In this document: positions 20,988 through 53,218 of the stretch, piece after piece
Numbering within the stretch: the stretch's first letter is position 1
How the letters are laid out: each line of letters opens with the position of its first letter
Origin: Streptomyces griseoviridis
Lineage (GTDB): Bacteria > Actinomycetota > Actinomycetes > Streptomycetales > Streptomycetaceae
NCBI RefSeq assembly: GCF_005222485.1
Contig: NZ_CP029078.1
Location: 6,289,501 to 6,353,500 of the forward strand
DNA length: 64,000 nucleotides
Direction of reading: 5' to 3'
Translations under genes and position numbers: made by a program
Notes under the pieces: generated by a model
Told to the model about the DNA's origin: nothing
The model's database searches: none
What the model saw: the letters and a program-made list of their open reading frames with translations, nothing else

Positions 20988-21056
20988 CGACGGCCGGCCA
21001 CCGGCCGGACCCACGTGGCAGACACGGACCGACCCTCCCGAAAGGGCATCAAGCGC

Positions 21057-37970: not shown

Positions 37971-40811
37971 TCAGCCGGAGAAGCCGACGTGCGCGAGCCG
38001 CAGCGGGCCGCGCAGCCTCAGCCGGACGTCGCGCACTCCTTCGGCGACGATCCCGGCGCGGACGGTGGTGTAGTCGTAGGGGCCGCGCGGCTCGTCCGGC
38101 CTCAGGGTGAGCGAGGCGAGCACCGGGCCGCCGTCCAGGGCGAGTTCGAGGGTGCCCTCGCCGGCCAGCGCGGCGCCGACCTCGGTGGCACCGTCCTCGA
38201 AGTCGCAGGCACGGAAGACGAGTTCGGCGCTGCGGCCGGACGCGGGCGTCACCGCGTCGCCCGCCGTCCTGCTCCGGTCGACGATCGCCGCGCCGCTCTG
38301 CTCGTCGAAGTCGGCCGCGTCCAGGCCCCGGCGCAGAACGGGCCGCGGGGCGGCGGGAGTTCCCTCCAGCGGCACCGTCGTGCGCAGCCTGATGTCCTCG
38401 CTCGACGCGCCCACCAGCAGTTCGTAAGGACCCGGCTCCAGGCGCCAGTCGCCCCTGGCCACGTCCCAGAACGCGAAGGCGGAGAGCGGGACGTCGAAGG
38501 CGAGCGCGGTCCGGGCGCCGGGGGCCAGGGTGATCCTGCGGTGCGCGAGCAGTTCGCGGCGCGGCCGGGGCACCGACCCCGCCACCGCCCGCGTGTAGAG
38601 CTGGGCGACCTCGTCGGCGGTGACGTCCCCGGCGTTGGTCACCGTGAAGGACACCCGGACGCTGCCGTCGTCGACCCGGGCCGACAGGTCCGCGTAGCCG
38701 AACGTCGTGTAGGAGAGGCCGTGTCCGAACGGGAACAGCGGGCTCCCCTCGAAGTAGAGGTAGGTCTGCCGGCCGCCGATCACGTCGTAGTCGAGGAGGT
38801 CGGGCAGGTCGGCGTCGCTCCCGTACCAGGTCTGCGGCAGCCGCCCGGCGGGGGAGACGTCACCGGCGAGGACCCGGGCCAGCGCGGTGCCCGCGGCCTG
38901 CCCGCCGTGCGCGGTCCACAGCACGGCGGGCGGCGCGGGCGTCTCGACGGTGTACGGGTAGGCCGACACCAGCGCGAGGACGGTGCGCGGGTTCGCGGCC
39001 CGCGCCGCCCGCAGCAGCCGCCGCTGGTGCTCGGGCAGCCGCAGCGTCGAACGGTCCTCGGTCTCCCGGCCGCCTATGTGCGGGTCGTTGCCCGCGACCA
39101 CCACGACCACGTCCGCCGCCCCCGCGGCGCGGGCCACCGCGTCCTCGCCGCGCTCGACGACCACGATCTCGAAGACCTCGGGCCGCTCGTCGGCAACCCG
39201 CACGCCCTCGGCGGCGACTGACACGGGACGACCCGTACCGAGGTGCCGGAGGAGGTGGCCGCCCGCGTGGGGTTCGAGACGGAACGTCTCCTGGACGACC
39301 CAGCCGCCCGGCTGGTCGGCGGAGGCGCGCACCAGGCCGTCGTCGGCGACCGAGAGGTAGCGGCCGTCGGGCGCGCGCAGGGTCCAGACGCCGTCGCCCC
39401 AGCCGATCAGGGCGAGTTCGGTGCCGGTGGCGTCGGTGGTCAGCGGCGGCAGGTCGGTGCGGCCCGCGAGCAGCGCGGGGTCCAGGGCGCCGTCCGCGCC
39501 GCGGGTCTCCTCGGGGGCGTCGGGGGCGGCGGGCACGTGCAGGAAGGTGCCGGCGGCGGTCCTGAGGCGGACGCGGTCGACGCCCTCGGCGAAGGTGACG
39601 CGGTCGGCGCCGAACCGCTCGTACAGGCCCTCCAGCGGGGTGCTGCGGTGGATCAACGTGCCGCTGTACCAGTCGAGTTTGCACTCGTCGGCGAGGAGTC
39701 CGACCACCGCGACCCGGGTGTCGGGGGCGAGCGGCAGCAGTCCGTCGTTGCGCAGCAGCACGATGGCCTGCTCGGCGGCCTCCCGCGCGAGCGCCCGGTG
39801 CGCGGGGGTGTCGAAGGCCGCGTCGTCCCGGTACGGGTCCTCGCCCGGGTCGAACTCCCCGAGCCGCAGCCGCACGGCGAGCTGTCTGCGCACCGCCGTG
39901 TCGAGGTCGGCCTCGGTCAACAGGCCCTGATCGAGGGCGCCTTGGACGCGGGCGACGATGTGCGAGGAGTCCGTGCCGTGGTCGGTGAAGCTGTCCACGC
40001 CCGCCCGCAGGGCCGCCGCCGTCGCCTCCTCGTGGGTGTCGAAGTAGTGCTCGGAGTCGACCAGGTTGGAGGGCGCCCCGGCGTCCGAGCAGACCAGCAG
40101 CTCCTGGTCGGTCCAGGTCCGCAACTGCTCGCGCAGATACGGCGAGACGTGGTTGGGGCGGCCGTTGACCAGGTTGTAGGCCGGCATCACCCCGGCCACC
40201 GCGCCCGCCTCGACGGTCTCCTTGAAGGCCCGCAGGTCGTACTCGTGCAGTACCCGGGGCCGTACCGTGCTCGACGACGTGTCCCGGTCCCGCTCGTTGT
40301 TGTGGGCCAGCCAGTGCTTGAGGACCGGCGCGGTGCGCCAGTACACCGGGTGGTCGCCGCGCAGGCCGCGGGTGTACGCCGTCGCGATGGCGGAGGTCAG
40401 CCGGGGGTCCTCGGAGTAGCCCTCCTCGTTGCGGCCCCACAGCGGGTGGCGCAGCAGGTTGACGGTGGGGGACCAGACGTTCAGGCCGACCCGGTCGTCG
40501 TGCGCGCGCATCGCGCGGGCCTCGCGTCCGACGGCCTCGCCGATCCGGCGCACCAGGTCGGTGTTCCAGGTCGTGCCGAGGCCGACGGCCTGCGGGAACA
40601 CCGTCGCCGGGCCCATCCACGCCACCCCGTGCAGGGCCTCCTGGCCGGTGCGGAACGCGGCGATGCCCAGGCGGTCGACGGCGGGCGTGTACTGGTGCAG
40701 GAAGGAGACCTTCTCGGCGGGCGTGAGCCGGGCCAGCAGGTCGTCGATGCGCTTCGCGAACGGCAGCCGCGGATCGCGGAACGGCGGCGTGGGCGGCGTC
40801 TGTGCGGTCAC
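37971..40811 (-). CDS. GH3 beta-glycosidase (beta-glucosidase/xylosidase) with inserted domain
   Basis: The enzyme has about 946 residues and no signal peptide, so it is intracellular. The GH3 N-domain runs from RIDDLLARLTPAEKVSF to the nucleophile segment LLVCSDAGAPSN, with KHWLAHNNERDRD the substrate-binding KH motif. The second domain (AIVLLRNDGLLPL onward) is interrupted by an inserted beta-trefoil/fascin-like module (GWGDGVWTLRAPDGRYLSV, about residues 470-540). It is followed by an FN3-like domain (LYFEGSPLFPFGHGLSYTTF onward) and a C-terminal CBM6-like module. GTG at 40811 follows AAGGGGA; an ATG at 40868 would start within the operator region and is rejected. It is transcribed alone from a LacI-controlled promoter. 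In xyloglucan use it would remove terminal glucose (or xylose). Confidence 0.87.
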   Translation of the reverse strand: MTAQTPPTPPFRDPRLPFAKRIDDLLARLTPAEKVSFLHQYTPAVDRLGIAAFRTGQEALHGVAWMGPATVFPQAVGLGTTWNTDLVRRIGEAVGREARAMRAHDDRVGLNVWSPTVNLLRHPLWGRNEEGYSEDPRLTSAIATAYTRGLRGDHPVYWRTAPVLKHWLAHNNERDRDTSSSTVRPRVLHEYDLRAFKETVEAGAVAGVMPAYNLVNGRPNHVSPYLREQLRTWTDQELLVCSDAGAPSNLVDSEHYFDTHEEATAAALRAGVDSFTDHGTDSSHIVARVQGALDQGLLTEADLDTAVRRQLAVRLRLGEFDPGEDPYRDDAAFDTPAHRALAREAAEQAIVLLRNDGLLPLAPDTRVAVVGLLADECKLDWYSGTLIHRSTPLEGLYERFGADRVTFAEGVDRVRLRTAAGTFLHVPAAPDAPEETRGADGALDPALLAGRTDLPPLTTDATGTELALIGWGDGVWTLRAPDGRYLSVADDGLVRASADQPGGWVVQETFRLEPHAGGHLLRHLGTGRPVSVAAEGVRVADERPEVFEIVVVERGEDAVARAAGAADVVVVVAGNDPHIGGRETEDRSTLRLPEHQRRLLRAARAANPRTVLALVSAYPYTVETPAPPAVLWTAHGGQAAGTALARVLAGDVSPAGRLPQTWYGSDADLPDLLDYDVIGGRQTYLYFEGSPLFPFGHGLSYTTFGYADLSARVDDGSVRVSFTVTNAGDVTADEVAQLYTRAVAGSVPRPRRELLAHRRITLAPGARTALAFDVPLSAFAFWDVARGDWRLEPGPYELLVGASSEDIRLRTTVPLEGTPAAPRPVLRRGLDAADFDEQSGAAIVDRSRTAGDAVTPASGRSAELVFRACDFEDGATEVGAALAGEGTLELALDGGPVLASLTLRPDEPRGPYDYTTVRAGIVAEGVRDVRLRLRGPLRLAHVGFSG

Positions 40812-40847
40812 GTGAGGGTCCCCTTGCGATGGAGCGTCGGAACTCTT

Positions 40848-40890
40848 TCGAAGCGCTTCGATGCTCATTCGACGGACCACCGGGTGTCAA
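40848..40890 (-). promoter_or_regulatory. GH3 promoter and LacI operator
   Basis: TTGACA (minus strand, 40890-40885) and GAGCAT (40866-40861) are spaced by 18 bp. The perfect palindrome TCGAAGCGCTTCGA (40848-40861) begins at the end of the -10 box, so a bound LacI protein would block initiation. Confidence 0.7.
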
Positions 40891-41000
40891 GACATCCCCC
40901 CGCAACACCTCCGACTTTTCCCGGCATCGCAAGCCTCATATGAACGCGCGCCAAACCCGCACACCTCGGAGGAATCTTGGGAGCGACCCTTGTGCGCCCC

Positions 41001-41042
41001 TTGCCCTTCACTTAACCTCGCAGCAACATCGAAGCGCTTCGA
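41001..41042 (+). promoter_or_regulatory. Transporter-operon promoter and LacI operator
   Basis: TTGCCC (41001-41006) and CAACAT (41024-41029) are spaced by 17 bp. The identical palindrome TCGAAGCGCTTCGA (41029-41042) starts at the last base of the -10 box. The layout mirrors the GH3 promoter. The remaining 139 bp to the gene start are an untranslated leader with no visible gene. Confidence 0.7.
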
Positions 41043-41181
41043 CTCCTGGGTGGCCACCGCACAGGGTGCGTGTCCCGGCACAGACGTCGGAGGACCGCTT
41101 CGGCTCAGCAGTTCCACTCACGACACCGCAGCCGACGTCCCCACCGCCGGGTGTCCTGGTGCGCCATGAAGGGTTGACGCA

Positions 41182-42885
41182 ATGACGCCGAACGCCGCTT
41201 CCCGCTCCGGTGGTTCCTCAGGACCGAGCCGCCGCAGCTTCCTCGCCTCCACCGCGGTCGCCACCGCCGCGGTCGCGGGCGGGCTGCCGCTGCTCTCCGC
41301 GTGCGGCGGCTCGGACAGCGGGTCGGGAGGAGGGTCGTCGGCGGGCAAGGGCGCGAAGAAGCTGCTGCCCTCCTACACCGCGGGCGGTGTGGTCACCCCG
41401 GACATCCCCGCCAAGAACGGCTCGGCGGCCGGCTTCACCGCCGAACTCGACATCGCGGGCCTGAAGACGTCGGTGCCCGAGAAGCTCGGCAAGGGCGGCA
41501 AGGTCACCGTCATGTCGCCGTTCTGGGGCTCGCCGCCGGGGAACGACAACGCCTACTACCGGGCGATGAACGAGCTGACCGGCGTCGACGTCGTCTGGCA
41601 GAACCAGGACGGCAACACCTACGACCAGAAGCTCGGCGCGGTCCTCGCCTCCAGCGACGTACCGGACGTGGTCGTCGTCCCCGGCTGGAACATGGGCGGC
41701 AAGATACCCAGCGCCATCACCGGCAAGTTCGCCGACCTCGGGCCCTACCTCTCCGGCGACAAGGTCGAGCGGTACCCGAACCTCGCGGCGATCCCCACCG
41801 ACGCCTGGCAGCGCTGCATCTTCGGCGGCAAGCTGCGCGGCCTGCCGATGCCGTCGTCGTACGTCACCAACATCGTGCCCCTCTACCGCAAGGACATCTT
41901 CGACAAGGAGGGCTACGAAGTCCCGCGCTCCGCCGCCGAGTTCATGGCGCTCGCGAAGGACATCACCAACGCGCGGGCGAAGCGCTGGGCCTGCCAGGAC
42001 ATGAAGTGGACGGCGTTCAACACCTTCGGCGTGCTCTCCGGCGGCGAGAAGCCGCTCGGCTGGAACCTCGTCGACGGCAAGCTCGTCTACCGCGTCGAGA
42101 CCGACGCCTACCTCGAAGCCCTGGAGTGGACGCGCAAGCTGTTCGCCGCGGGCGTCGTCCACCCGGACGCCATGCTGGGCAAGAGCAGCGCCACCGACCC
42201 CGGCCCCAAGTTCGCGGCCGGCGAGTTCCTCATCTACAACCAGGACATCTCGCAGTGGTGGAGCCGCTCCGCCGAACAGGCCACCCAGAACCCCGCGTAC
42301 AAGATCTGGGGCATGGACATCTGGGGCCACGACGGCGGCGACCCGACGATCTGGGCCACCCAGCCCGCCAACATCTTCGCCTTCATCAGCAAGAAGGCGT
42401 CCGAATCGGTGATCAGGGACGCGCTGGCCGTCGCCGACGTCACGGCCGCGCCGTACGGCACCAAGGAGTACATGCTCACCAACTACGGTGTGCAGGGCAC
42501 CCATTACACCGTCAAGGACGGCGTGCCCACCAAGACCAAGCAGGGCAACATCGACGTCCTCAACGCCTTCGTGATGGTGGCGAGCCCCGCCCCGACCATC
42601 GCCCACCCGGACTTCCCCGACGTCACCAGGGCCATGGTCGAGTGGCAGCAGCGGATGGGCGCCTTCACCAAGAAGTCCACGTTCTACGGCCAGCAGATCA
42701 CCGAGCCGACCCGCTACACCAACCTCTCCAACGACTTCGAGCAGTTGGAGGACGACATCGTGCGCGGCCGCAAGAAGGTCTCCGACATGCAGCAGGCCGC
42801 CTCCGACTGGAAGAACAAGGGCGGCGACAAGCTCCGCGACTGGTACCAGAAGCTGCTCGACGACAACGGCTCGGCCACGAGCTGA
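41182..42885 (+). CDS. Oligosaccharide-binding lipoprotein (LplA-like)
   Basis: The 567-residue extracellular solute-binding protein belongs to the large group used with LplB/YtcP-type permeases. A Tat-type lipoprotein signal (SRRSFLASTAVATAAVAGGLPLLSAC) gives a lipidated cysteine near residue 35. The mature domain contains VTVMSPFWGSPPGNDNAYYRAMNEL and WGMDIWGHDGGDPTIWATQPANIFAF. The large size fits binding of long branched oligosaccharides. ATG at 41182 follows GAAGGG. It is the first gene of a six-gene operon with two permeases and glycosidases GH42, GH95 and GH12, under a LacI operator. Confidence 0.88.
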   Translation: MTPNAASRSGGSSGPSRRSFLASTAVATAAVAGGLPLLSACGGSDSGSGGGSSAGKGAKKLLPSYTAGGVVTPDIPAKNGSAAGFTAELDIAGLKTSVPEKLGKGGKVTVMSPFWGSPPGNDNAYYRAMNELTGVDVVWQNQDGNTYDQKLGAVLASSDVPDVVVVPGWNMGGKIPSAITGKFADLGPYLSGDKVERYPNLAAIPTDAWQRCIFGGKLRGLPMPSSYVTNIVPLYRKDIFDKEGYEVPRSAAEFMALAKDITNARAKRWACQDMKWTAFNTFGVLSGGEKPLGWNLVDGKLVYRVETDAYLEALEWTRKLFAAGVVHPDAMLGKSSATDPGPKFAAGEFLIYNQDISQWWSRSAEQATQNPAYKIWGMDIWGHDGGDPTIWATQPANIFAFISKKASESVIRDALAVADVTAAPYGTKEYMLTNYGVQGTHYTVKDGVPTKTKQGNIDVLNAFVMVASPAPTIAHPDFPDVTRAMVEWQQRMGAFTKKSTFYGQQITEPTRYTNLSNDFEQLEDDIVRGRKKVSDMQQAASDWKNKGGDKLRDWYQKLLDDNGSATS

Positions 42886-42911
42886 CCGGCACCGAGGCAA
42901 GGAGAACGGCC

Positions 42912-43946
42912 GTGTCCCACAGCACGGTGCCTCGCGACAGGGCCGAGGCCGACACCACAGGGACCAACCCGCAGGCACGGGACGACGCCACCGGGCCCCC
43001 GCGCACCGACCGCCCCGGCAGGGTGAGCCTCCGCGTCCGGCTGCGCCGCGACCGCGTCCTGCTGCTGATGACCCTGCCGGCACTCCTGCTGGTGCTGCTG
43101 TTCAACTACGTCCCGATCCTCGGCAACATCGTCGCCTTCCAGGACTACGACCCCTACATCAGCGACAACGGCGTCGTCTCGATCCTGCACAGCCCCTGGG
43201 TCGGCGTCGAGAACTTCCAACGGATCGTCGCGGACTCGGCGTTCTGGAACGCGGTGACGAACACACTGCTGCTGTTCTTCCTCCAGCTCGTGCTGTTCTT
43301 CCCGCTCCCGATCCTGCTCGCGCTGCTGATCAACAGCGTCGTCAGACCCCGGGTGCGGGCGCTGTCGCAGGCCATCCTCTACCTGCCGCACTTCTTCTCC
43401 TGGGTGCTGGTCATCGCCGTCTTCCAGCAGCTGTTCGGCGGCGCGGGAATCCTCTCCCAACTCCTGCGCCAGCACGGGTACGACGGGCTCGACATCATGA
43501 CCGACCCGGACACCTTCAAGTTCCTCATCACCGCGCAGAGCGTCTGGAAGGACGCCGGCTGGGGGATCATCGTCTTCCTCGCCGCCCTCGCCTCCGTCAG
43601 CCCCGACCTGTACGAGGCCGCCGCGATGGACGGCGCGGGCCGCTGGCGCCGCATGTGGCACGTCACCCTGCCCGCGCTGCGGCCGGTGATCGCGCTGCTC
43701 CTGGTGCTGCGCGTCGGCGACGCCCTCACCGTCGGCTTCGAACAGATCCTGCTGCAACGCGACGCCGTCGGACCGGGGGCGTCGGAGGTCCTCGACACCT
43801 TCGTGTGGTGGAACGGTGTCCGCAACCAGGACTTCGGATACGCGGCCGCCGCCGGTCTGGTCAAGGGCGTGGTCAGCCTCGGGCTGGTCCTCGCCGCGAA
43901 CAAGGTCGCCCATCTGATGGGCGAGCAGGGGGTGTACAAGAAGTGA
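42912..43946 (+). CDS. Oligosaccharide ABC permease (LplB-like)
   Basis: The 344-residue permease has a long N-terminal hydrophilic segment and about six membrane helices (first: VLLLMTLPALLLVLLFNYVPI). The ATPase-contact loop is LYEAAAMDGAGRWRRMWHVTLPAL, and FSWVLVIAVFQQLFGGAGIL is a typical LplB region. GTG at 42912 has AAGGAGA 6 nt upstream. Its stop overlaps the next permease start (GTGA). No ATPase gene is present in the locus, so it must use a shared ATPase of the MsiK type encoded elsewhere. Confidence 0.88.
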   Translation: MSHSTVPRDRAEADTTGTNPQARDDATGPPRTDRPGRVSLRVRLRRDRVLLLMTLPALLLVLLFNYVPILGNIVAFQDYDPYISDNGVVSILHSPWVGVENFQRIVADSAFWNAVTNTLLLFFLQLVLFFPLPILLALLINSVVRPRVRALSQAILYLPHFFSWVLVIAVFQQLFGGAGILSQLLRQHGYDGLDIMTDPDTFKFLITAQSVWKDAGWGIIVFLAALASVSPDLYEAAAMDGAGRWRRMWHVTLPALRPVIALLLVLRVGDALTVGFEQILLQRDAVGPGASEVLDTFVWWNGVRNQDFGYAAAAGLVKGVVSLGLVLAANKVAHLMGEQGVYKK

Positions 43947-44881
43947 GCGCCGTCGTCGACAAGCCGCCCGCGCGCCCGCCGTCCCGGTGGGCCGCGCCGC
44001 CCCGGCCGGTGTGGGAGGAGAAGCCCCGCGCGACCGGCCTCGCGGGCAAGGGCCTCGTCCTCGCCCTCGCCTGCCTCGGCATCCTCTTCCCGCTCTGGAT
44101 CGTCGTCGTCACCAGCCTCTCCTCGCGCCGCGCCATCGACGAGGCCGGCGGCCTCGTGATGGTGCCCCACGACCTCACCTTCGTCGCCTACCGCGAACTC
44201 CTCAGCGGCGGCCAGGTCACCCGCGCCACCGTCATCAGCGTCCTCGTCACCCTGGTCGGCACCGCGTTCTCGATGACCGTGTCGGTGCTCTGCGCCTACG
44301 GACTCTCCCGGACGACGTCGGTCGGCCACCGCTGGCTGCTGATGACGCTGCTCGCCACGATGTTCTTCAGCGCGGGCCTGATCCCCACCTATCTGCTGGT
44401 GCAGTCCCTCGGCCTCACCGACAGCTATCTCGCGCTGATCCTGCCGAGCGCCATCAGCGTCTTCAACATCCTGGTGCTGCGCGGGTTCTTCATGGGCATC
44501 TCGCAGGAACTCACCGACAGCGCCCGCATCGACGGCGCAGGCGACTTCCGCATCCTGTGGCAGATCGTGATGCCGCTCTCCCGCGCCGTGCTCGCCGTGA
44601 TCACGCTGTTCTACGCCGTCGGCTACTGGAGCGCCTGGTTCAACGCGTCGCTGTACCTCAACGACCAGGACATGATGCCGCTGCAGAACGTCATGATCCA
44701 GCTGGTGCAGAAGCAGGAGGCGCCGGTGGGGCTCGGACAGGCCATCAAGACGGGGGAGCTGTCGGGGCTCGCCGTGCAGATGGCGGTCATGGTGATGGCG
44801 CTGCTGCCGGTCGCGGTGCTCTCGCCCTTCGTCCAACGCCACTTCAGGAAGGGCATGTTGACCGGGGCGGTCAAGGGATGA
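43943..44881 (+). CDS. Oligosaccharide ABC permease (YtcP-like)
   Basis: The 312-residue permease has six membrane helices. The coupling loop is LTDSARIDGAGDFRILWQIVMPLSRAV, and the C-terminal QRHFRKGMLTGAVKG is a hallmark of the YtcP group. GTG at 43943 overlaps the previous stop and its own stop overlaps the GH42 start, so the two permeases and the glycosidase are translated as a coupled series. Confidence 0.88.
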   Translation: MSAVVDKPPARPPSRWAAPPRPVWEEKPRATGLAGKGLVLALACLGILFPLWIVVVTSLSSRRAIDEAGGLVMVPHDLTFVAYRELLSGGQVTRATVISVLVTLVGTAFSMTVSVLCAYGLSRTTSVGHRWLLMTLLATMFFSAGLIPTYLLVQSLGLTDSYLALILPSAISVFNILVLRGFFMGISQELTDSARIDGAGDFRILWQIVMPLSRAVLAVITLFYAVGYWSAWFNASLYLNDQDMMPLQNVMIQLVQKQEAPVGLGQAIKTGELSGLAVQMAVMVMALLPVAVLSPFVQRHFRKGMLTGAVKG

Positions 44882-46866
44882 GCCGCGCCCCGCAGCCCCG
44901 GCCCGGCCTCGGCACGGTGACCCGCGGCCGGATCCTGTTCGGCGGCGACTACAACCCGGAGCAGTGGCCCGAGGAGACCTGGCGGGAGGACGTCCGGCTG
45001 ATGCGTGACGCCGGCGTCAACTCCGTCACCGTCGGCGTCTTCTCCTGGGCCAGGATCGAACCCCGCCCGGACGCACGAGAGTTCGGCTGGCTGGACCGGC
45101 TGATGGAGCTGCTGCACGACCACGGCGTCGGGGTCGTGCTCGCCACCCCGACCTCCGCGCCACCGCCCTGGCTCGGCAGGCTGCACCCCGAGACCCTGCC
45201 GCGCGACGAGGACGGGCGCGTCGAGTGGTGGGGCGGACGCCAGCACTTCTCGCACTCCAGCGCCGCCTACCGGCGCCGCGCCGCCGCCGTCACCGAGGAC
45301 CTCGCCGCCCGCTACGCGGACCACCCCGCCCTCACCCTGTGGCACATCAACAACGAGTACTGCACCTACGACTGGGGCGACGAGGCCGCCGCCCGGTTCC
45401 GTACCTGGCTGCGCGCCAGGTACGGCGACCTCGACGGCCTCAACTCCGCCTGGGGCACCGCGTTCTGGAGCCAGGGCTACGGCGAGTGGGCGGAGGTCAT
45501 GCCGCCCAGGCACGCCCACTACCTGAAGAACCCCACCCAGGTCCTCGACTTCAAACGGTTCACCTCCGACATGCTCCTCGAGTGCTACACCGCCGAGCGC
45601 GACATCGTGCGCGGCCACACCCCGCACCTCCCGGTCACCACCAACTTCATGCCGCTGTGGGCAGGCCAGGACGCCTGGCGGTGGGCCGAGGAGGAGGACG
45701 TCGTCTCCGTCGACCTCTACCCGGACCCGCGCGACCCCTACGGCGCCCAGCACGGCGCGCTCGTGCAGGACATGACCCGCTCCCAGGCGCGCGGCCCCTG
45801 GATGCTGATGGAGCAGGCGGCGGGACCGGTCAACTGGCGGGGCGTCAACCACCCCAAGCCACGCGGCCTCAACCGGCTCTGGTCCCTCCAGGCGGTCGCC
45901 AGGGGCGCCGACGCCGTCTGCTACTTCCAGTGGCGCCAGTCCCGGCAGGGCGCCGAGAAGTTCCACTCCGGGATGCTCGGCCACGCGGGGGAGGAGGGCC
46001 GCACCTTCCAGGAGGTCAAGCAGATCGGCGCCGAACTGGCCTCCCTGGCACCACACGTGACGGACCGTCACTACATCGCGGACATCGCCGTGCTGCACGA
46101 CTGGCACGCCTGGTGGGCCGGCGCCCACGAGGGCCGGCTCTCCATCCACGTCGACCACGCCGACCTGCTCACCACCTGGCACCGCGCCCTGTGGCGGGCC
46201 CACCTCACCACCGACTTCGCCCACCCCGAACACGACCTCAGCGCCTACAGGCTGGTCGTCGTCCCGCAGCTGTACGCCCTCACCGACCGGGCCGTCGACA
46301 ACCTCGTCGGCTATGTGCGCGGCGGCGGCACCCTGGTCAGCGGCTTCCTGACCGGCGTCGCCGACCGGGACGACCGGATCAGACCGGGCGGCATGGACGC
46401 GCGGCTGCGCACCCTCTTCGGCATCCGCGTCCTGCACGAGTGGTGGCCGCTCGACGCCGGCGAGACCGTCGCGACGGACACCTTCGACGGCACCCTGTGG
46501 TCGGAGGAGATCGACCCGGCGCCGGACGCCGTCGCCGAGGCCGTCTACCGCGGCGGCGAACTCGACGGCCTGCCCGCCGTGCTGCGCAGGGGCCGCGCCT
46601 GGTACCTCTCCACCCTCCCCGCACCCGACGCCCTGCGCACCCTGCTCACCGGGATCGCCGAGTCCGCGGGAATCCACCCGGTCCTCGCCGGACTCCCCGC
46701 CGAGGTCGAGGCGGTGCGCCGCGGCGACCTGCTGTTCCTGCTCCACCACGGGCGCGAACCGGTCACCGTGGAGGTGCCCGGCAGCCACCGCGACCTGCTC
46801 ACCGGCGCTGTCGTCACCGACCGCGTCACCCTCGGCCGGTACGGAGCGGCGGTGCTCGCGCCATGA
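44878..46866 (+). CDS. GH42 beta-galactosidase
   Basis: The 662-residue intracellular enzyme has the full GH42 architecture. The TIM barrel starts at ILFGGDYNPEQWPEETW, with acid/base Glu160 in HINNEY and nucleophile Glu312 in LMEQAAGPVNW. A trimerisation domain (LVVVPQLYALTD) and a small beta domain follow. It removes beta-linked galactose, which in xyloglucan caps xylose side chains once fucose is gone. The start overlaps the permease stop (ATGA). Arabinogalactan fragments are an alternative substrate. Confidence 0.92.
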   Translation: MSRAPQPRPGLGTVTRGRILFGGDYNPEQWPEETWREDVRLMRDAGVNSVTVGVFSWARIEPRPDAREFGWLDRLMELLHDHGVGVVLATPTSAPPPWLGRLHPETLPRDEDGRVEWWGGRQHFSHSSAAYRRRAAAVTEDLAARYADHPALTLWHINNEYCTYDWGDEAAARFRTWLRARYGDLDGLNSAWGTAFWSQGYGEWAEVMPPRHAHYLKNPTQVLDFKRFTSDMLLECYTAERDIVRGHTPHLPVTTNFMPLWAGQDAWRWAEEEDVVSVDLYPDPRDPYGAQHGALVQDMTRSQARGPWMLMEQAAGPVNWRGVNHPKPRGLNRLWSLQAVARGADAVCYFQWRQSRQGAEKFHSGMLGHAGEEGRTFQEVKQIGAELASLAPHVTDRHYIADIAVLHDWHAWWAGAHEGRLSIHVDHADLLTTWHRALWRAHLTTDFAHPEHDLSAYRLVVVPQLYALTDRAVDNLVGYVRGGGTLVSGFLTGVADRDDRIRPGGMDARLRTLFGIRVLHEWWPLDAGETVATDTFDGTLWSEEIDPAPDAVAEAVYRGGELDGLPAVLRRGRAWYLSTLPAPDALRTLLTGIAESAGIHPVLAGLPAEVEAVRRGDLLFLLHHGREPVTVEVPGSHRDLLTGAVVTDRVTLGRYGAAVLAP

Positions 46867-46916
46867 CGACGACCCACGCCCGCGTCCGGCTCCCGGTGGC
46901 GGTGCCGCCGTCATGA
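46863..46916 (+). CDS. 17-codon mini-ORF bridging GH42 and GH95
   Basis: ATG at 46863 overlaps the GH42 stop (ATGA). The frame reads MTTTHARVRLPVAVPPS, and its stop overlaps the ATG of the GH95 gene (ATGA at 46913-46916). There is no independent ribosome-binding site. It looks like a relay that lets terminating ribosomes re-initiate across the 46-nt gap, rather than a functional peptide. It could be chance. Confidence 0.4.
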   Translation: MTTTHARVRLPVAVPPS

Positions 46917-49096
46917 CCCTCGCCCACGGCACCTGGGAACCGCGCCCCGCCGCCCGCTGGGAGGACGGCTTCCTGAGCGGCAACGGCCGCCACGGCACCC
47001 TCATGTTCGGCGACCCGAACGACGAGCGGGTCGTCGTCACCCATCACGCGCTGGTCCGCCCCAACGGCGGCGAACACGCGCGGCCACCCGCGCTCGCCGC
47101 CGAACTCCCCTCCCTCCAGGACCGGTTGCTCGCCGGTGACCTGTTCGCCGCCGAGACCTTCACCGACGGACGCCCCCTCCAGTGGGTGCAGCCCTTCCAC
47201 CCCGCCTTCCAGACCCGGGTGCGCCGCCCGGCCGCCGCACCGGGCCCCTACCGGCGCTCCGTCGACTTCACCACCGGCGTCACCGCGTCGGTCCACGGCC
47301 ACCTCGACAGCCGGGTCTTCGTCTCCCGCGCCGACGACGTGATCGTCCACCGGATCACGGGACCCGACCTCGACATCGTCCTCGACCACCGGCTGCCCGG
47401 AGCGCCGCGCGGCCTCGCCGTCGGCGAGAGCGCCGTCCTCACCTCCGACGGCGCCCTGCTCAGCCTGCGGGTCCGTTACCCCGGCGGCGACCGCGCCTAC
47501 ACCGGCCTCACCCTGGTGGTGGCCGCGGGCGGCCGGGTCCGGCTGACACCCCCCGGCGTCCACGTCACCGGCGCCCGCTCGGTACTGCTGCTCACCCGGG
47601 TGCGACGGCACACCGGCGAACCGGACCCCACCGCCGACGGCCGGGCCCTGCGCGCCCTGCTGCCCGACGACCCCGACCCGTACGCCCGCCTCCTCGACCG
47701 GCACACCACCGCGCACACCACCGCCTACCGGCGCGTCACCCTCGACCTGCACGCCGATCCCGCCGAACGCGCTCTGCCGGGCTCCGAGTTGCTGACCCGC
47801 CCCGGCAGCCCCGCCCTGCTGGAGCGGCTGTTCGCGGCCGGCCGCTACCACCTGCTCAGCGCCAGCGGCCTCAACCCGCCACGCCTGACCGGCCTGTGGA
47901 CGGGCGACTGGGACACCGCCTGGTCAGGCGCCTTCACCAACGACGCCAACCTCAACCTCCAGACCGCCTCGGCCACCGCGACCGACCTCCCCGAGGTGAC
48001 CGAGGCCCACGCGTCCCTGATCCACCGCCAGGCCGACGACTGGGCCGAGAACGCCCGCACCGTCTTCGGCGCCCGGGGCATGGTGGCGCCCGCCCACAGC
48101 GACGGCGACAGCGGCCTGAGCTACCACTTCAGCCGCGAGTACCCGCTGCACCTGTGGACCGCGGGCGCCGACTGGCTGCTCACACCGCTCGTCCACCACG
48201 ACGAGACCCGAGGCACCCGCGACCCGCGCACCGCCGCCGCCCTCGCCCGGGTCGCGCTGTTCTACGAGGACTTCCTCACCCGCACCGACGCCACGGGACG
48301 GCTCGCCCTCGTCCCCTCCTACTCGCCCGAGAACCGGCCCGCGGGCGGCAGTTGGGGCGCCATCGACGCGGCCATGGACCTCTCCGCCGCCCGGCACGCC
48401 CTGCGCACCGCCGCCGCCTACCACCCGGGACCCGACGCCGAGCGCTGGAGAGCCCTCGCCGACCGGCTCCCACCGCACCGCGTCAACGCCGACGGCGCCC
48501 TCGCCGAATGGGCCCGCGAGGGCCTGGGCGACCGCTACGACCACCGTCACCTCAGCCATCTCTACGGCGTCTGGCCGCTCGACGAGATCAACCCCTACGA
48601 CACCCCCGCCCTCGCGGCCGCCGCGCACCGCGCCCTCGCCCTGCGCGGCGCCGAGAACGACTCCGCGCACGGCCACCTCCACCACGCCCTGATCGCCGCC
48701 CGGCTGCGCGACGCCGACCGGGTCAACCACGCCCTCGGCCAGGTGCTGCGCGGCGACTTCTTCCACGACTCCCTGATGAGCGCCCACTACCCGGGCCGCG
48801 ACGTCTACAACGCGGACGCCGCCCACACGCTGCCCGCCGTCGTCGTCGAGTCGCTCGTCCAGTCGACGCCCGACCGGCTGGTCCTGCTGCCCGCGCCGGT
48901 CCGCCCGAGCGGCCGGCTGCTCGGCGTCCGCACCCGGTTCGGGGCCGCACTCGACCTCACCTGGACCCCCGACGGCTGCACCGCGGTGCTCCGCCCCACC
49001 CGGACCCACCGCGTCGAACTCAGGACTTCCTCCGGCGCCCGGCCGCTCGATCTCGTCGCCGGAGAAGACCGCGTCCTCACCCTGGGGGCGCGCTGA
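46913..49096 (+). CDS. GH95 alpha-L-fucosidase / alpha-L-galactosidase
   Basis: The 727-residue glycosidase has the GH95 plan: an N-terminal beta-sandwich (FLSGNGRHGTLMFG) and an (alpha/alpha)6 barrel with GLWTGDWDTAWSGAFTNDANLNLQ, corresponding to the conserved catalytic asparagines. The family-typical HRHLSHLYGVWPLDEI and a C-terminal sandwich (LLPAPVRPSGRLLGVRTRFGA) follow. GH95 enzymes release alpha-1,2-fucose (or alpha-L-galactose), the outermost sugar on xyloglucan. There is no signal peptide, so it would act on imported oligosaccharides. A mini-ORF couples it to GH42. Confidence 0.87.
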   Translation: MTLAHGTWEPRPAARWEDGFLSGNGRHGTLMFGDPNDERVVVTHHALVRPNGGEHARPPALAAELPSLQDRLLAGDLFAAETFTDGRPLQWVQPFHPAFQTRVRRPAAAPGPYRRSVDFTTGVTASVHGHLDSRVFVSRADDVIVHRITGPDLDIVLDHRLPGAPRGLAVGESAVLTSDGALLSLRVRYPGGDRAYTGLTLVVAAGGRVRLTPPGVHVTGARSVLLLTRVRRHTGEPDPTADGRALRALLPDDPDPYARLLDRHTTAHTTAYRRVTLDLHADPAERALPGSELLTRPGSPALLERLFAAGRYHLLSASGLNPPRLTGLWTGDWDTAWSGAFTNDANLNLQTASATATDLPEVTEAHASLIHRQADDWAENARTVFGARGMVAPAHSDGDSGLSYHFSREYPLHLWTAGADWLLTPLVHHDETRGTRDPRTAAALARVALFYEDFLTRTDATGRLALVPSYSPENRPAGGSWGAIDAAMDLSAARHALRTAAAYHPGPDAERWRALADRLPPHRVNADGALAEWAREGLGDRYDHRHLSHLYGVWPLDEINPYDTPALAAAAHRALALRGAENDSAHGHLHHALIAARLRDADRVNHALGQVLRGDFFHDSLMSAHYPGRDVYNADAAHTLPAVVVESLVQSTPDRLVLLPAPVRPSGRLLGVRTRFGAALDLTWTPDGCTAVLRPTRTHRVELRTSSGARPLDLVAGEDRVLTLGAR

Positions 49097-49130
49097 CCCG
49101 GTACCTCCCCCCACCCATGGAAGGGACACC

Positions 49131-49844
49131 ATGGCACCCACCACCCCGAGCAGGATCGCCAGGATCCTGCTGACCCCCGCCCTCGCGCTCGGCTTCACCG
49201 TCGGCGTCGCCTCCGCGCCCGCCTCGGCCGCCGTCTGGAACTCCTGCGACCAGTGGGGCAACACCACGCTGAACGGCTACACGCTCTACAACAACATCTG
49301 GGGCTCGGGCGCCGGCAGCCAGTGCGTCTGGGCCAACTCCGGTACCAACTGGGGCGTCTGGGCGAACCACCCCAACACCGGCGGCATCAAGTCCTACCCG
49401 AACTCCAAGAAGGTGATCAACAAGTCGATCACCTCGCTCGCCTCGCTCACCAGCAGCTACAACGTCACCGTCCCGTCGTCGGGCGCGTACAACACGTCGT
49501 ACGACATCTGGGACACCGACTACGACTACGAGATCATGCTCTGGGTCAACAAGACCGGCGCGGTCGGCCCGCTCGGCACCTCGCAGGGCAACCTCACCCT
49601 GGGCGGCCACACCTGGACCGTCTACAAGGGCGACAACGGCGCCAACCAGGTCTTCTCCTTCGTCCGCACCTCCAACTCGACCTCCGGCACGGTCGACGTC
49701 CTGCCGATCCTGAAGTGGATCAAGGACACCAAGGGCTGGTTCGGCAACGAGACGATCGGCGACGTGCAGTTCGGCTACGAGATCACGTCGTCCTCGGGCG
49801 GCCTGGACCTTACCACCAACAACCTGACGGTCAGCAGCAGTTGA
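49131..49844 (+). CDS. Secreted GH12 endo-glucanase / xyloglucanase
   Basis: The 237-residue secreted enzyme has a signal peptide (about 1-34, cleavage after ASA). The GH12 jelly roll carries nucleophile Glu134 in YEIMLWVN and acid/base Glu217 in GDVQFGYEIT. It has no carbohydrate-binding module or linker. GH12 members cut beta-1,4-glucan or xyloglucan internally; context with GH31, GH95 and GH42 favours xyloglucan. It is the last gene of the operon, 34 nt after GH95, with GGAAGGG before ATG 49131, and is the only secreted depolymerase in the locus. Confidence 0.92.
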   Translation: MAPTTPSRIARILLTPALALGFTVGVASAPASAAVWNSCDQWGNTTLNGYTLYNNIWGSGAGSQCVWANSGTNWGVWANHPNTGGIKSYPNSKKVINKSITSLASLTSSYNVTVPSSGAYNTSYDIWDTDYDYEIMLWVNKTGAVGPLGTSQGNLTLGGHTWTVYKGDNGANQVFSFVRTSNSTSGTVDVLPILKWIKDTKGWFGNETIGDVQFGYEITSSSGGLDLTTNNLTVSSS

Positions 49845-49849
49845 GCGGA

Positions 49850-49886
49850 GCCGGGGGCGGGGTCCGCGCGGTTCCCCGCCCCCGGC
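49850..49886. terminator. Bidirectional terminator between GH12 and GH31
   Basis: GCCGGGGGCGGGG (49850-49862) pairs perfectly with CCCCGCCCCCGGC (49874-49886) over an 11-nt loop between the two convergent stops. Confidence 0.8.
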
Positions 49887-49889
49887 GCG

Positions 49890-51938
49890 CTACTCGCCCA
49901 CCGGCAGCGACGCCCCGTCCCGCAGGAACAGCGGGATCCGCTCCAGCGGCGCCTCGACGGTGACCGTCGCGCCGCCCTCGTACCCGCGGCCGGTCCACGC
50001 GTCCGTCCAGGTCGCCCCGGCCGGCAGCCGCACGGCGCGGGTCCTGGCGCCCGCCTCCAGGACCGGCGCGACCAGCAGATCGGGGCCGAGCAGATAGGCG
50101 TCGTCCACCGACCAGGCCGCCGGGTCGCCGGGGAACTCCAGGAACAGCGGGCGCATCACCGGCAGCCCCTCCTCGTGCGCCTGCCGCATCACGTCCAGGA
50201 CGTAGGGGCGCAGCCGCTCCCGCAGCCGCAGGTACCGCTCCAGGATCGCGCCCGCCCGAGGTCCGTACGACCAGACCTCGTTGGGGCCGCCGGTCATCTC
50301 GGGGCCGAGCGGCATGCCCGGGTCGCGGAAGCCGTGCAGCCGCATCAGCGGGGACAGCGCCCCGAACTGGAACCAGCGGACCATCACCTCCCGGTACGCC
50401 GGGTCGTCCGGGTCGCCGCCGTGGAAGCCGCCGATGTCCGTGTTCCACCACGGGATGCCGGACAGCGACGTGTTGAGCCCCGCCGCGATCTGCCGCCGCA
50501 GGGTCGGGAAGTCGGTGCCGATGTCACCGGACCACACCGCGGCGCCGTAGCGCTGACTGCCCGCCCAGGCCGAGCGGTTGAGGGTGATCACCTCGTCGTG
50601 CCCCGACGCCCGCAACCCCTCGTGGAACGTACGGGAGTTCTCCGCCGGGTACGCGTTGCCGACCTCGAGGCCGGGACCCGCCCAGTAGCGCAGGTTCTCC
50701 TGGAACCCCGGCTTCAGCTCAGGCTCGCAGGCGTCCAGCCAGAACGCCGTTATCCCGTACGGATCGAGGTAGTTCTCCTTGATCCTGGACCAGAGGAAAT
50801 CACGCGCCCGCGGGTTCGTCGCGTCGTAGAACGCGACCTGGACCGTGGAGGCGACCCCCTTGTCCGGCCAGTCGGCGTGCGCCGTCGGACCGTACTCCGT
50901 GCCGATGAAGTGGCCGCGCTGCTCCATCAGTTGATGGTTCTCGCTGAGCGGCGACACCGACGGCCACACGCTCACCACCAACGTGATGCCCAGCTCGTCG
51001 AGTTCGCGCACCATCGCCGCCGGGTCGGGCCACTCGGCGGGGTCGAACTTCCACTCGCCCAGATGCGTCCAGTGGAAGAAGTCGCAGACGATCGCCGAGA
51101 TCGGCAGTCCGCGCCGCTTGTACTCCCGTGCCACGGCGAGGAGTTCGTCCTGGGTGCGGTAGCGCAGCTTGCACTGCCAGAACCCGGCCGCCCACGCGGG
51201 CAGCATCGGGGTGCGCCCGGTGACCGCGCTGTAGCGGCGCTGCCCGTCGGCCGGGGCGCCCGCGGTGATCCAGTAGTCGATCTGCCGGGCCGAGTCGGCC
51301 ACCCAGCGGGTGCCGTTGCCCGCCAGCTCCACCCGGCCGATCGCCGGGTTGTTCCACAGCAGGGTGTAGCCGCGGCTGGAGGAGAGCACCGGGACGGTGA
51401 TCTCGGCGTTGCGCTGCACCAGGTCGACCACCAGCCCCTTCTGGTCGAGCCGCCCGTGCTGGTGCTGGCCGAGGCCGTACAGCTTCTCGTCGTCGTAGGC
51501 GGCGAACCGCTGCTCCAGGCGGTGGCTGCCGCCCCCGACCGGGGTGTAGAGGCGCGGGCCGGGCCACCAGAAGTGGGCGCGCTGCTCGGCGAGCAGCTCC
51601 GAGCCGTCGGCGGTGCGCAGGAACCGGAGCTGCCCCTCGGCGTCCACCTCCACGGTGAGCGCGCCGACCGTCAACCGACCGTGCCCCGCGCCGGTCTTGA
51701 CGCTCGACGAGGCCGGCGGCGGGGTGTCGAGCAGCGCGCCGGGCAGGTTCTCCAGGAGGGGGCCGCCGAGGCGGGCCCTGACCCGGACCGCGTCCGGGCC
51801 CCACGGCTGGATCCGCACGGTCTCCTGACGGCCGCTCCACTCCAGCGCGCCGTCCCGCTCGCGGAAGGTGCCGACGGTGGGCGACGACTGCGCCAGGCTG
51901 ACCGTGCCCCTGGACTGGTGCGAGGCAGGCTGATTCAC
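49890..51938 (-). CDS. GH31 alpha-xylosidase
   Basis: The 682-residue intracellular GH31 enzyme has an N-terminal beta-sandwich, and LPAWAAGFWQCKLRYRTQDELL opens the barrel. The aglycone-side segment is ISAIVCDFFHWTHLGEWKFD, the nucleophile Asp402 is in FWLDACEPE and the acid/base Asp472 in WSGDIGTDF. The DFFHW-type motif is one I associate with alpha-xylosidases, which remove xylose from xyloglucan oligosaccharides; alpha-glucosidase activity is less likely. GTG at 51938 follows AGGAGC. It is 99 nt after the LacI stop on the same strand, so both are probably co-transcribed. Confidence 0.88.
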   Translation of the reverse strand: MNQPASHQSRGTVSLAQSSPTVGTFRERDGALEWSGRQETVRIQPWGPDAVRVRARLGGPLLENLPGALLDTPPPASSSVKTGAGHGRLTVGALTVEVDAEGQLRFLRTADGSELLAEQRAHFWWPGPRLYTPVGGGSHRLEQRFAAYDDEKLYGLGQHQHGRLDQKGLVVDLVQRNAEITVPVLSSSRGYTLLWNNPAIGRVELAGNGTRWVADSARQIDYWITAGAPADGQRRYSAVTGRTPMLPAWAAGFWQCKLRYRTQDELLAVAREYKRRGLPISAIVCDFFHWTHLGEWKFDPAEWPDPAAMVRELDELGITLVVSVWPSVSPLSENHQLMEQRGHFIGTEYGPTAHADWPDKGVASTVQVAFYDATNPRARDFLWSRIKENYLDPYGITAFWLDACEPELKPGFQENLRYWAGPGLEVGNAYPAENSRTFHEGLRASGHDEVITLNRSAWAGSQRYGAAVWSGDIGTDFPTLRRQIAAGLNTSLSGIPWWNTDIGGFHGGDPDDPAYREVMVRWFQFGALSPLMRLHGFRDPGMPLGPEMTGGPNEVWSYGPRAGAILERYLRLRERLRPYVLDVMRQAHEEGLPVMRPLFLEFPGDPAAWSVDDAYLLGPDLLVAPVLEAGARTRAVRLPAGATWTDAWTGRGYEGGATVTVEAPLERIPLFLRDGASLPVGE

Positions 51939-52037
51939 GTGGGGTGCTCCTGATGACGTGGAGACAGGGGGGTGCCCCGGAGGGCGCGGGGGCGGTGCGC
52001 GGAAGGTCGGGGGAGGGTGCGGGGCGGTGCGCGGACG

Positions 52038-53093
52038 TCAGGCGGGGGCGCCGGCGGGCGCCGGACCCGTGCTCGCCCTGACCGTCAACTCGGGTGCGAT
52101 CAGCACGACATCGTCGAGGTCGCGGCCGTCGAGCTTGGCCATCAGCTGTTCGACGGCGCTGCGGCCCATCTCCTGGGCGGGGATGGCGACGGACGTCAGC
52201 CGCACGGACGCCTGCACGGCGACCTGCTCCGGGCAGATGGCGACCACCGACACGTCCTCGGGCACCGCCCTGCCCTGCTGGCGCAGCAGGGCGAGCAGCG
52301 GCTCCACCGCCGACTCGTTCTGCACCACGAACCCGGTGGTGCCCGGCCGTTCGTCCAGCACCCGGGCGAGGGTCGCGGCCATCGCGGCGTAGCCGCCCTC
52401 GCACGGCCTGTGCAGCAGCCGGATGCCCAACTCCCGTGCCCGGGACCTGAGTCCGTCCAGGGTGCGTTCGGCGAAGCCGGTGTGCCGCTCGTAGACGGCG
52501 GGTGCCTCGCCGATGACAGCGATGTCACGGTGGCCGAGCAGCGCCAGATGCTCGACGCAGAGCGCGCCCGTCGCCCGGAAGTCGAGATCGACGCAGGTGA
52601 GCCCCGTGGTGTCGGCCGGCAGCCCGATCAGCACCGACGGCTGCTCGTCCCCCGGCCTCGCCCCCGCTCGGCCCAGGGTGCCGCCGCCGCGCAGCAACGG
52701 CAGCCGCTCGTCGTCGAGTTCGACGTCCATCAGGATCATCGCGTCGGCCAGGCCGCTGCCGGTGACCCGGCGGACCGCGTCCGGGCCCTCCTCGCCGGTG
52801 AGCAGCAGGACGTCGTAGCCGTGGGTGCGGGCCGTGGTGGCGACCGCGATGGCGATCTCCATCATCACCGGCACGTACATGTCGGTGCGCAGCGGCACCA
52901 TCAGCGCGATGATGTTGGACCGGCTGCTGGCCAGCGCCCGCGCCCCGGCGTTCGGGTGGTAGCCGAGCTCCTTGATGCTCTCCTCCACCCGCAGCCGGGT
53001 GGTCGTGGAGATGGACCGCTTGCCGCTGAGGACATAGCTCACCGTGCTCGCCGAGACTCCGGCGTGCTGGGCGACCTCGGCGAGGGTGACCAT
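52038..53093 (-). CDS. LacI-family transcriptional repressor of the glycan locus
   Basis: The 351-residue regulator has a classical LacI headpiece (MVTLAEVAQHAGVSASTVSYVLSGKRSISTTTRLRVEE) with hinge helix PNAGARALASSR, then a periplasmic-binding-like sensor domain. ATG at 53093 is the natural start; the frame extends to 53219 but would place the operators inside the gene. Two copies of the GAAGCGCTTC operator flank its promoter, and the same operator occurs before GH3 and before the transporter operon, so it very likely represses itself and the whole locus. The inducer would be an imported oligosaccharide or sugar. Confidence 0.92.
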   Translation of the reverse strand: MVTLAEVAQHAGVSASTVSYVLSGKRSISTTTRLRVEESIKELGYHPNAGARALASSRSNIIALMVPLRTDMYVPVMMEIAIAVATTARTHGYDVLLLTGEEGPDAVRRVTGSGLADAMILMDVELDDERLPLLRGGGTLGRAGARPGDEQPSVLIGLPADTTGLTCVDLDFRATGALCVEHLALLGHRDIAVIGEAPAVYERHTGFAERTLDGLRSRARELGIRLLHRPCEGGYAAMAATLARVLDERPGTTGFVVQNESAVEPLLALLRQQGRAVPEDVSVVAICPEQVAVQASVRLTSVAIPAQEMGRSAVEQLMAKLDGRDLDDVVLIAPELTVRASTGPAPAGAPA

Positions 53094-53110
53094 CCAGCTC
53101 TCCCAGCGGT

Positions 53111-53125
53111 GTGAAGCGCTTCGAC
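53111..53125. promoter_or_regulatory. LacI operator, downstream copy at lacI gene
   Basis: GTGAAGCGCTTCGAC contains the 10-bp core GAAGCGCTTC with imperfect outer bases. It lies 18 bp before the lacI start codon, downstream of the likely promoter. Confidence 0.6.
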
Positions 53126-53164
53126 AGTGCGCAAGGTGTACAGGGGCAGGTGAGGGTGGTTCGA

Positions 53165-53193
53165 CAGTAGCTTCCCGCCGAGAGGGTGTCCAT
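53165..53193 (-). promoter_or_regulatory. Candidate promoter of the lacI gene
   Basis: On the minus strand TGGACA (53193-53188) and TACTGT (53170-53165) are spaced by 17 bp, between the two LacI operators. Confidence 0.4.
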
Positions 53194-53196
53194 AGG

Positions 53197-53218
53197 GTGT
53201 CGAAGCGCTTCGACACCA
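53197..53218. promoter_or_regulatory. LacI operator, best copy
   Basis: This is a perfect 22-bp palindrome with the core TCGAAGCGCTTCGA flanked by GGTG and CACC. It lies upstream of the lacI promoter, about 90 bp (centre to centre) from the second copy, so looping between them is possible. The next 50 bp (53221-53270) hold CCGGCGAA/CCGGCGA direct repeats and no gene. Confidence 0.75.

Follow-up and report, generated by a model that had tools for sequence, protein, structure and literature searches.

In Ruminiclostridium cellulolyticum, the gene cluster Ccel_2451-2458 serves the use of xyloglucan, large oligosaccharides of which are imported and then digested in the cytoplasm (PMC4780118, PMC8576529; published work is cited throughout from excerpts of the papers). 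We report a nine-gene locus of Streptomyces griseoviridis whose genes point to the same design, and which is very probably a xyloglucan uptake-then-digest system. It spans positions 37971-53093 of the analysed window, a stretch of 64,000 nucleotides at 6,289,501-6,353,500 of a single-contig genome of 8,962,736 bases, and comprises, in order, GH3 (minus strand), a solute-binding protein (SBP), permease 1, permease 2, GH42, GH95 and GH12 (all plus strand), GH31 and LacI (both minus strand). As in the R. cellulolyticum cluster, an SBP and two permeases with an unlinked ATPase are combined with leaderless GH42, GH31 and GH3 enzymes; unlike there, GH12 (in relatives also GH74) and GH95 lie inside the locus, a LacI-family protein with a palindromic operator takes the place of the two-component system XygS/XygR, and there is no cellulosome. 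An initial annotation of this DNA had drawn the same comparison, and both the uptake-then-digest likeness and the LacI difference are real, but the missing linked ATPase, which it had presented as a further difference, was dropped as such, as the R. cellulolyticum cluster is also without one (PMC4780118).

The xyloglucan utilisation locus (XyGUL) of Xanthomonas likewise groups a beta-galactosidase with GH31 and GH95, and resembles the relatives of our locus in its GH74; it differs in relying on GH35, TonB-dependent transporters and a CE20 esterase, where the present locus has GH42 and an ATP-binding cassette (ABC) transporter (PMC8245568). Further xyloglucan loci, of Cellvibrio japonicus and Bacteroides ovatus, are named in PMC8245568 and PMC9203511. 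None of the nine genes described here encodes a SusC/D or TonB-dependent transporter. The Cellvibrio and Bacteroides loci have a GH31 alpha-xylosidase, a beta-galactosidase, GH95 and GH3 in common with the present locus, but follow a Gram-negative TonB or SusC/D logic with periplasmic digestion.

Xyloglucan is among the main hemicelluloses in the primary walls of plants, and Streptomyces count among the major bacteria of soil and roots. Some of them have been reported to grow on tamarind xyloglucan, in a paper whose excerpts mention no such locus (PMC11475409), and a tomato study reported plant loci associated with Streptomyces variants in three genes, for a binding protein, an alpha-xylosidase and the xyloglucanase Xgh74A (PMC9203511). 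In the literature searched, we found no Streptomyces xyloglucan locus described with its regulator, which is not proof of absence from print.

Locus genes and their probable substrate

The nine genes named by the initial annotation are all present on the strands it implied, each as an open frame with a single terminal stop and at least one Pfam match above cut-off. Its division into a secreted GH12, a binding lipoprotein with two permeases and four leaderless exo-enzymes is borne out by the N-termini and the Pfam matches, leaders and some gene names having been judged by eye. It had called the catalytic residues of GH42, GH12 and GH31 visible in the sequence; among orthologues, residues of all three are invariant, in GH42 (E160 and E312, 78 of 78), GH12 (glutamates E134 and E217, 75 of 75) and GH31 (nucleophile and acid/base aspartates D402 and D472, 60 of 60). 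The gene order is kept across dozens of related loci, and the arrangement is therefore not a product of chance. Its xyloglucan reading also gains support, because three features of the system agree with it: the nearest solved relatives of GH12 and GH31, the recurrence of a GH74-type gene in the operons of relatives, and an operator that leads to operons with a YicI-type GH31.

GH12 (49131-49844, plus strand) carries a Sec-like signal, as read by eye, and is the sole GH12 match in the genome. Its best PDB relative is NopAA (152 bits; next, 107 bits), a xyloglucanase (PMC7303141). Trp42 and Tyr53 of the window enzyme align with Trp13 and Tyr24 of a fungal XEG, the positions of which are given in PMC7303141; NopAA has neither residue. 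In the orthologue alignment, Tyr53 is kept in 75 of 75 sequences and Trp42 in 67 of 75, with Tyr in the others. An equivalent of Trp42 also occurs in endoglucanases (1olq and kin), which carry Ser at the position of Tyr53. GH12 is a probable endo-xyloglucanase. GH31 (49890-51938, minus strand, GTG start) is probably an alpha-xylosidase: its best PDB match is MeXyl31, titled 'Alpha-xylosidase' (675 bits), followed by the alpha-xylosidase 7kmp (354 bits), and the aromatic -1 residue, the role of which is described in PMC8245568, is F287 in all 60 orthologues, as in MeXyl31, with Trp in XacXyl31 (alignment numbered through the nucleophile).

A scan of a genome collection with GH95 as bait confirmed 241 loci, of which we retrieved the best 80, making 81 with the window. 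Many of them hold an extra gene between permease 2 and GH42, a GH74-type xyloglucanase gene. Among its 18 PDB matches, most of the strong ones (504-316 bits) carry the name xyloglucanase or xyloglucan hydrolase, and it is from these names that we take the family number to be GH74. The gene is covered to more than 90% in 59 of the 81 loci, in pieces in 5 and not at all in 17, the window being among the last; its absence is uninformative in two loci that reach contig ends (L072 and L106), and a third (L123) is without GH42 too. The locus had been called complete, which is right for the genes named at the time and wrong in that this is not the fullest form of the system.

The binding protein (41182-42885, plus strand, 567 aa, Pfam SBP_bac_8) starts with a twin-arginine signal and lipobox, as judged by eye. 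In sequence, its single PDB match is weak (30 bits); the AlphaFold model (pLDDT, the predicted local distance difference test, 77) has as its first 13 fold matches AlgQ1, AlgQ2 and glycosaminoglycan-related SBPs (E 1e-17 to 1e-15; template modelling score by query length 0.49-0.62). These proteins bind large or polymeric saccharides. With 911 chains matching the model at E 0.001 the fold class is broad, and the model suggests an SBP of the large-oligosaccharide type. Permease 1 (42912-43946, GTG start, scanned from 43068) and permease 2 (43943-44881, GTG start at 43943), both on the plus strand, match BPD_transp_1. As the initial annotation had stated, there is no ABC ATPase gene among the nine. 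The genome holds five OB_MalK matches, the best of them at genome position 4238396 with no permease within 1.5 kb on either side; it presumably resembles MsiK and is a candidate shared partner of the locus transporter.

GH42 (44878-46866, plus strand), a predicted beta-galactosidase, matches the GH42 catalytic domain (489 bits) and the M and C domains of Pfam, and the R. cellulolyticum GH42 removes galactose from xyloglucan oligosaccharides (PMC4780118). No signal sequence is apparent by eye at its N-terminus, nor at those of GH3, GH95 and GH31. GH95 (46913-49096, plus strand; Pfam catalytic domain and GH65N_2) is a probable alpha-1,2-L-fucosidase, the activity reported for XacAfc95, the GH95 of Xanthomonas (PMC8245568). 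Its predicted acid E532 and base D635 are conserved in 80 of 80 sequences, as is the second Asn of the catalytic pair, and the first Asn position holds Asp in 70 and Asn in 10. These positions follow those of BbAfcA and were placed through PDB alignments. The idea that Asp at the first position marks a dead enzyme was dropped, since relatives carry either residue there. Among the best 120 of 1441 matches of a GH95 protein search, the named ones are mostly Streptomyces and none is marked as characterised. The 'fucosylated' part of the substrate originally proposed has GH95 as its sole ground, and GH95 is absent from some sister loci.

GH3 (37971-40811, minus strand, 946 aa) has the N and C domains of its family in Pfam, an Fn3-like domain and a borderline CBM6 match (29.1 against a cut-off of 28.9 bits). 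While the family is certain, its role as a beta-glucosidase on trimmed xyloglucan oligosaccharides is probable; the best PDB match is 8j9f, 'Beta-glucosidase' (276 bits). The gene probably starts at the GTG at 40811, preceded by AAGGGGA, because the N-terminus of the longer open reading frame (ORF) would cover an operator. Numbered on that 965-residue ORF, an insert at about residues 434-577, beta-rich in a weak model, splits the C-terminal domain match; the CBM6-like domain lies at the C-terminal end.

Taken as a pathway, the xyloglucan backbone would be cut outside the cell by the secreted GH12 together with a GH74-type enzyme whose gene lies elsewhere in the genome, and in most loci examined a GH74-type enzyme encoded in the operon would join in this step. 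The lipoprotein and its two permeases would then import large oligosaccharides, powered by a shared, MsiK-like ATPase from another part of the genome. Once inside, they would lose fucose, where present, to GH95 and galactose to GH42 in the cytoplasm, and GH31, as alpha-xylosidase, and GH3, as beta-glucosidase, would alternate from the non-reducing end.

Several observations weigh against the xyloglucan reading. Since the 80 loci were the best of 241 and are close relatives, their counts do not represent independent events. GH95 is distant from its solved relatives (best PDB match 7kmq, 162 bits), and nothing in the genome matches PF07881, the L-fucose isomerase family; released fucose must therefore take another route or stay unused. 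The best NCBIfam model for GH3 is the Xyl3A beta-xylosidase, at 424 bits far under its cut-off of 1250, and the AlphaFold model of GH3, built from 14 sequences, is too weak for a fold search (pLDDT 62). The one other GH74-type gene of the genome (at genome position 7436929, 46% identity) has no operator within 1.5 kb. The GH12 family also contains cellulases, many endoglucanases and cellulases are among the PDB relatives of our GH12, the table of PMC11475409 files GH12 under cellulose, and GH3 enzymes act on cello-oligosaccharides. A system for cellulose or mixed-linkage glucan oligosaccharides, with GH12 as an ordinary endoglucanase and exo-enzymes for several side-chain sugars, is nevertheless highly improbable: GH31, GH42 and GH95 are not needed for cellulose, GH31 matches MeXyl31, the operon of relatives includes the GH74-type gene, and nowhere in the window does a site come within two mismatches of the CebR box TGGGAGCGCTCCCA of the Streptomyces cellulose regulon (PMC4898821), with a different operator in its stead.

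At least nine of the diverged loci (among L136-L147) likewise count against xyloglucan, as they hold GH42 and GH95 with no GH12 or GH74 hits in 18 kb. This pairing, and the listing of GH42 under pectin in the table of PMC11475409, would suit a system for pectin or arabinogalactan side chains with a GH42-GH95 core and GH12 as a passenger. We hold this to be very unlikely, since two loci without GH95 (L212, L217) retain GH12, GH3, SBP and permeases, a third (L213) has GH74, GH42 and GH31 as well, and the R. cellulolyticum galactosidase acting on xyloglucan oligosaccharides is itself a GH42 (PMC4780118).

Operator, regulator and satellite operon

The window holds three exact copies of the 14-base palindrome TCGAAGCGCTTCGA and the genome four, where base composition would predict about 0.02. 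The copies in the window flank all three likely transcription units. Of these units, SBP to GH12 is likely one transcript because permease 1/permease 2 and permease 2/GH42 overlap by four bases and the remaining gaps measure 26-46 bases; lacI-GH31 and GH3 would be the others. Operator 1 (40848-40861) lies upstream of GH3, operator 2 (41029-41042) upstream of the SBP operon and operator 3 (53200-53213) upstream of lacI-GH31. A degenerate copy with two mismatches, GTGAAGCGCTTCGA (53111-53124), adjoins the lacI start. LacI itself is encoded at 52038-53093 (minus strand; Pfam LacI and Peripla_BP_3), and the region up to 53213 is its control region. With up to two mismatches, the window has five matches against a shuffle mean of 0.31. 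At this tolerance the palindrome gave 55 matches over the whole genome and the reversed pattern 52, which is background, and so exact sites alone were counted.

This arrangement resembles the CebR regulon in its LacI-family regulator and 14-base palindrome over carbohydrate genes, but the box differs and the CebR inducer is of the cellobiose type (PMC4898821). The string TCGAAGCGCTTCGA was not found in the literature searched. Across the 81 loci, at least two exact sites lie in the divergent gap between GH3 and SBP in 74 of 74 evaluable cases, and at least one lies upstream of lacI in all 73 of 73 loci where that gene is oriented as expected; these two places account for 221 of the 224 exact sites. 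The protein is a probable oligosaccharide-responsive repressor, and the paired sites would allow looping. Bound to TCGAAGCGCTTCGA at the three exact sites and the degenerate one, it would silence GH3, the SBP-to-GH12 operon and lacI-GH31 as long as no oligosaccharide inducer is present.

The only other exact site of the genome (L017:7531; genome 3,628,000-3,645,000) precedes a second transporter operon, composed of an SBP, two permeases, a YicI-type GH31 (979 bits to YicI) and a LacI paralogue, with a two-mismatch palindrome 9 bases after the exact site. Sharing the operator, this satellite operon would be part of the same response. Copies of its GH31 at 83% identity or more have the operator before the gene or operon in 7 of 7 cases, the query included. 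Six copies at 64-65% identity have no site before them (that in G210 has two sites about 5 kb off), and one at 66% in G110 has a site 84 bases upstream (L216); with this last copy, a restriction of the link to close orthologues was dropped.

The palindrome could also belong to another regulator of the xyloglucan system, such as the LacI paralogue, without being bound by the local LacI. The DNA-binding domains of the two are very similar, the paralogue's operon has the same site, and sites adjoin either lacI or the paralogue gene. We consider this unlikely, given that residues 1-27 of LacI are invariant where the operator occurs (71 of 72 sequences align over this stretch, and all 71 agree) and that a solitary lacI in G086 has one exact upstream site, as expected for an autoregulated gene.

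GH95 matches at E 1e-60 or better were found in 71 of 249 genomes sampled from the same family. In 14 of these 71, we counted 62 exact sites, while the reversed pattern occurred once. By position, 40 lie near GH95 at the spacing of the main locus and 22 outside it, of which seven are at the YicI/LacI-paralogue operon (one before a LacI paralogue without YicI) and seven more at other copies or fragments of locus-type genes. The remaining 8 of the 22 were set aside as apparently unrelated to the system: six in sequence that looks coding by eye (one each in G237, G033, G122, G052, G200 and G009), one among unrelated genes in G210 and one in G139. In the last (L177, site 6001), a longer inverted repeat has the palindrome at its centre, and the genes on either side are apparently unrelated.

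The sites also persist where GH95 is missing. In 14 same-genus genomes, taken from the 20 listed among the 178 without a GH95 match, ten have no exact site and four hold 11. The reversed pattern occurs 5 times in these 14, so chance sites amount to about one per three genomes. Ten of the 11 sites adjoin locus genes, the regulator or YicI, and the eleventh (L215) is the coding-like site of other genomes. G107 has the full locus minus only GH95, GH74 included, plus a partial YicI gene; G098 has a locus without GH95, GH31 and GH74; G110 has an SBP-permeases-GH12-GH3-LacI version with the YicI gene elsewhere. In G086 (L218), lacI stands alone with its exact site between the usual flanks and no other locus gene within 12 kb, apparently a scar of locus loss. 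Since the sites adjoin system genes in these genomes, the palindrome appears to mark the system, and GH95, with it fucose removal, looks optional.

Related genomes suggest that the system is old and has a DNA switch of its own. We lean towards a dedicated Streptomyces xyloglucan regulon, in which a private TCGAAGCGCTTCGA would unite the main locus with the satellite operon, and the endo-module and the fucosidase would have been gained and lost repeatedly. The satellite, with its YicI-type GH31 and own LacI paralogue, would probably serve isoprimeverose or short oligosaccharides; the uptake-and-trimming core would be kept, while turnover of GH12, GH74, a second GH12 and GH95 would match local plant xyloglucan types. 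The exact operator offers a handle for testing the regulon and for finding such genes in unannotated genomes, because its sites led to such loci in genomes that had given no GH95 match.

Related loci and patchy gene content

Of the 80 nearest loci, 79 named ones are titled Streptomyces and one 'Actinobacteria bacterium'. A tblastn comparison finds GH42 in 78 of the 80, the SBP and permease 1 in 76 each, permease 2 and GH12 in 75 each, LacI in 74, GH3 in 73 and GH31 in 60. Contig ends account for some of the misses, and two of the LacI hits fall on other genes, at 28-30%. The presence of GH74 is patchy: on a quickly built tree of 97 GH95 sequences, 79 of them labelled (61 with and 18 without GH74), it takes at least 13 changes, 9 of which are forced by well-supported branches, against a mean of 16.3 with shuffled labels (9 of 500 shuffles equally low). 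The window and its nearest relative, L048, form a supported set of three with the GH74-bearing L049, and the gene was apparently lost in the window's lineage. Consistent with loss, L081, L088, L095 and L113 hold short pieces, each 8-10% of the gene and two of them no more than 47-51% alike.

A second GH12 match, of secreted type, is found in 22 of the 81 loci, in 17 of which it lies between lacI and the next gene (e.g. L050, L053). That gap, bounded by an acyl-CoA dehydrogenase-like gene (53466-55400 in the window), possibly puts it under the lacI operator. On the other side, the locus is flanked by an aldehyde dehydrogenase-like gene (36441-37886), both flanks being named from the sequence. 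Among the 20 diverged stretches fetched, L133-L135 of another genus (GH95 identity 54-56%) hold permeases, GH74, GH42, GH95 and GH12 in order, with the SBP in two, and in L149-L151 a GH74 match of 39-41% lies close to GH95, GH3 and permeases.

In some loci, the spot between GH12 and GH31/lacI holds unrelated genes (L055:12976-13596, L063:12973-14160, L080:13174-14061, L059:13068-16779); the inserts seen are a chorismate mutase, a sulfotransferase, an intradiol dioxygenase with CBM5/12, and an NMT1-type ABC set with a luciferase-like gene. G210 carries extra copies or fragments of the system with exact operators (L185, L188, L189; the latter two near one chromosome end), namely GH74-GH12, a diverged GH3-SBP-permease-LacI-GH42 set, and SBP and GH3 pieces. 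Elsewhere in the window, positions 21015-25197 hold another ABC set, by eye a Tat-type (twin-arginine translocation) binding lipoprotein, an OB_MalK-matching ATPase (22301-23470) and a permease-like gene.

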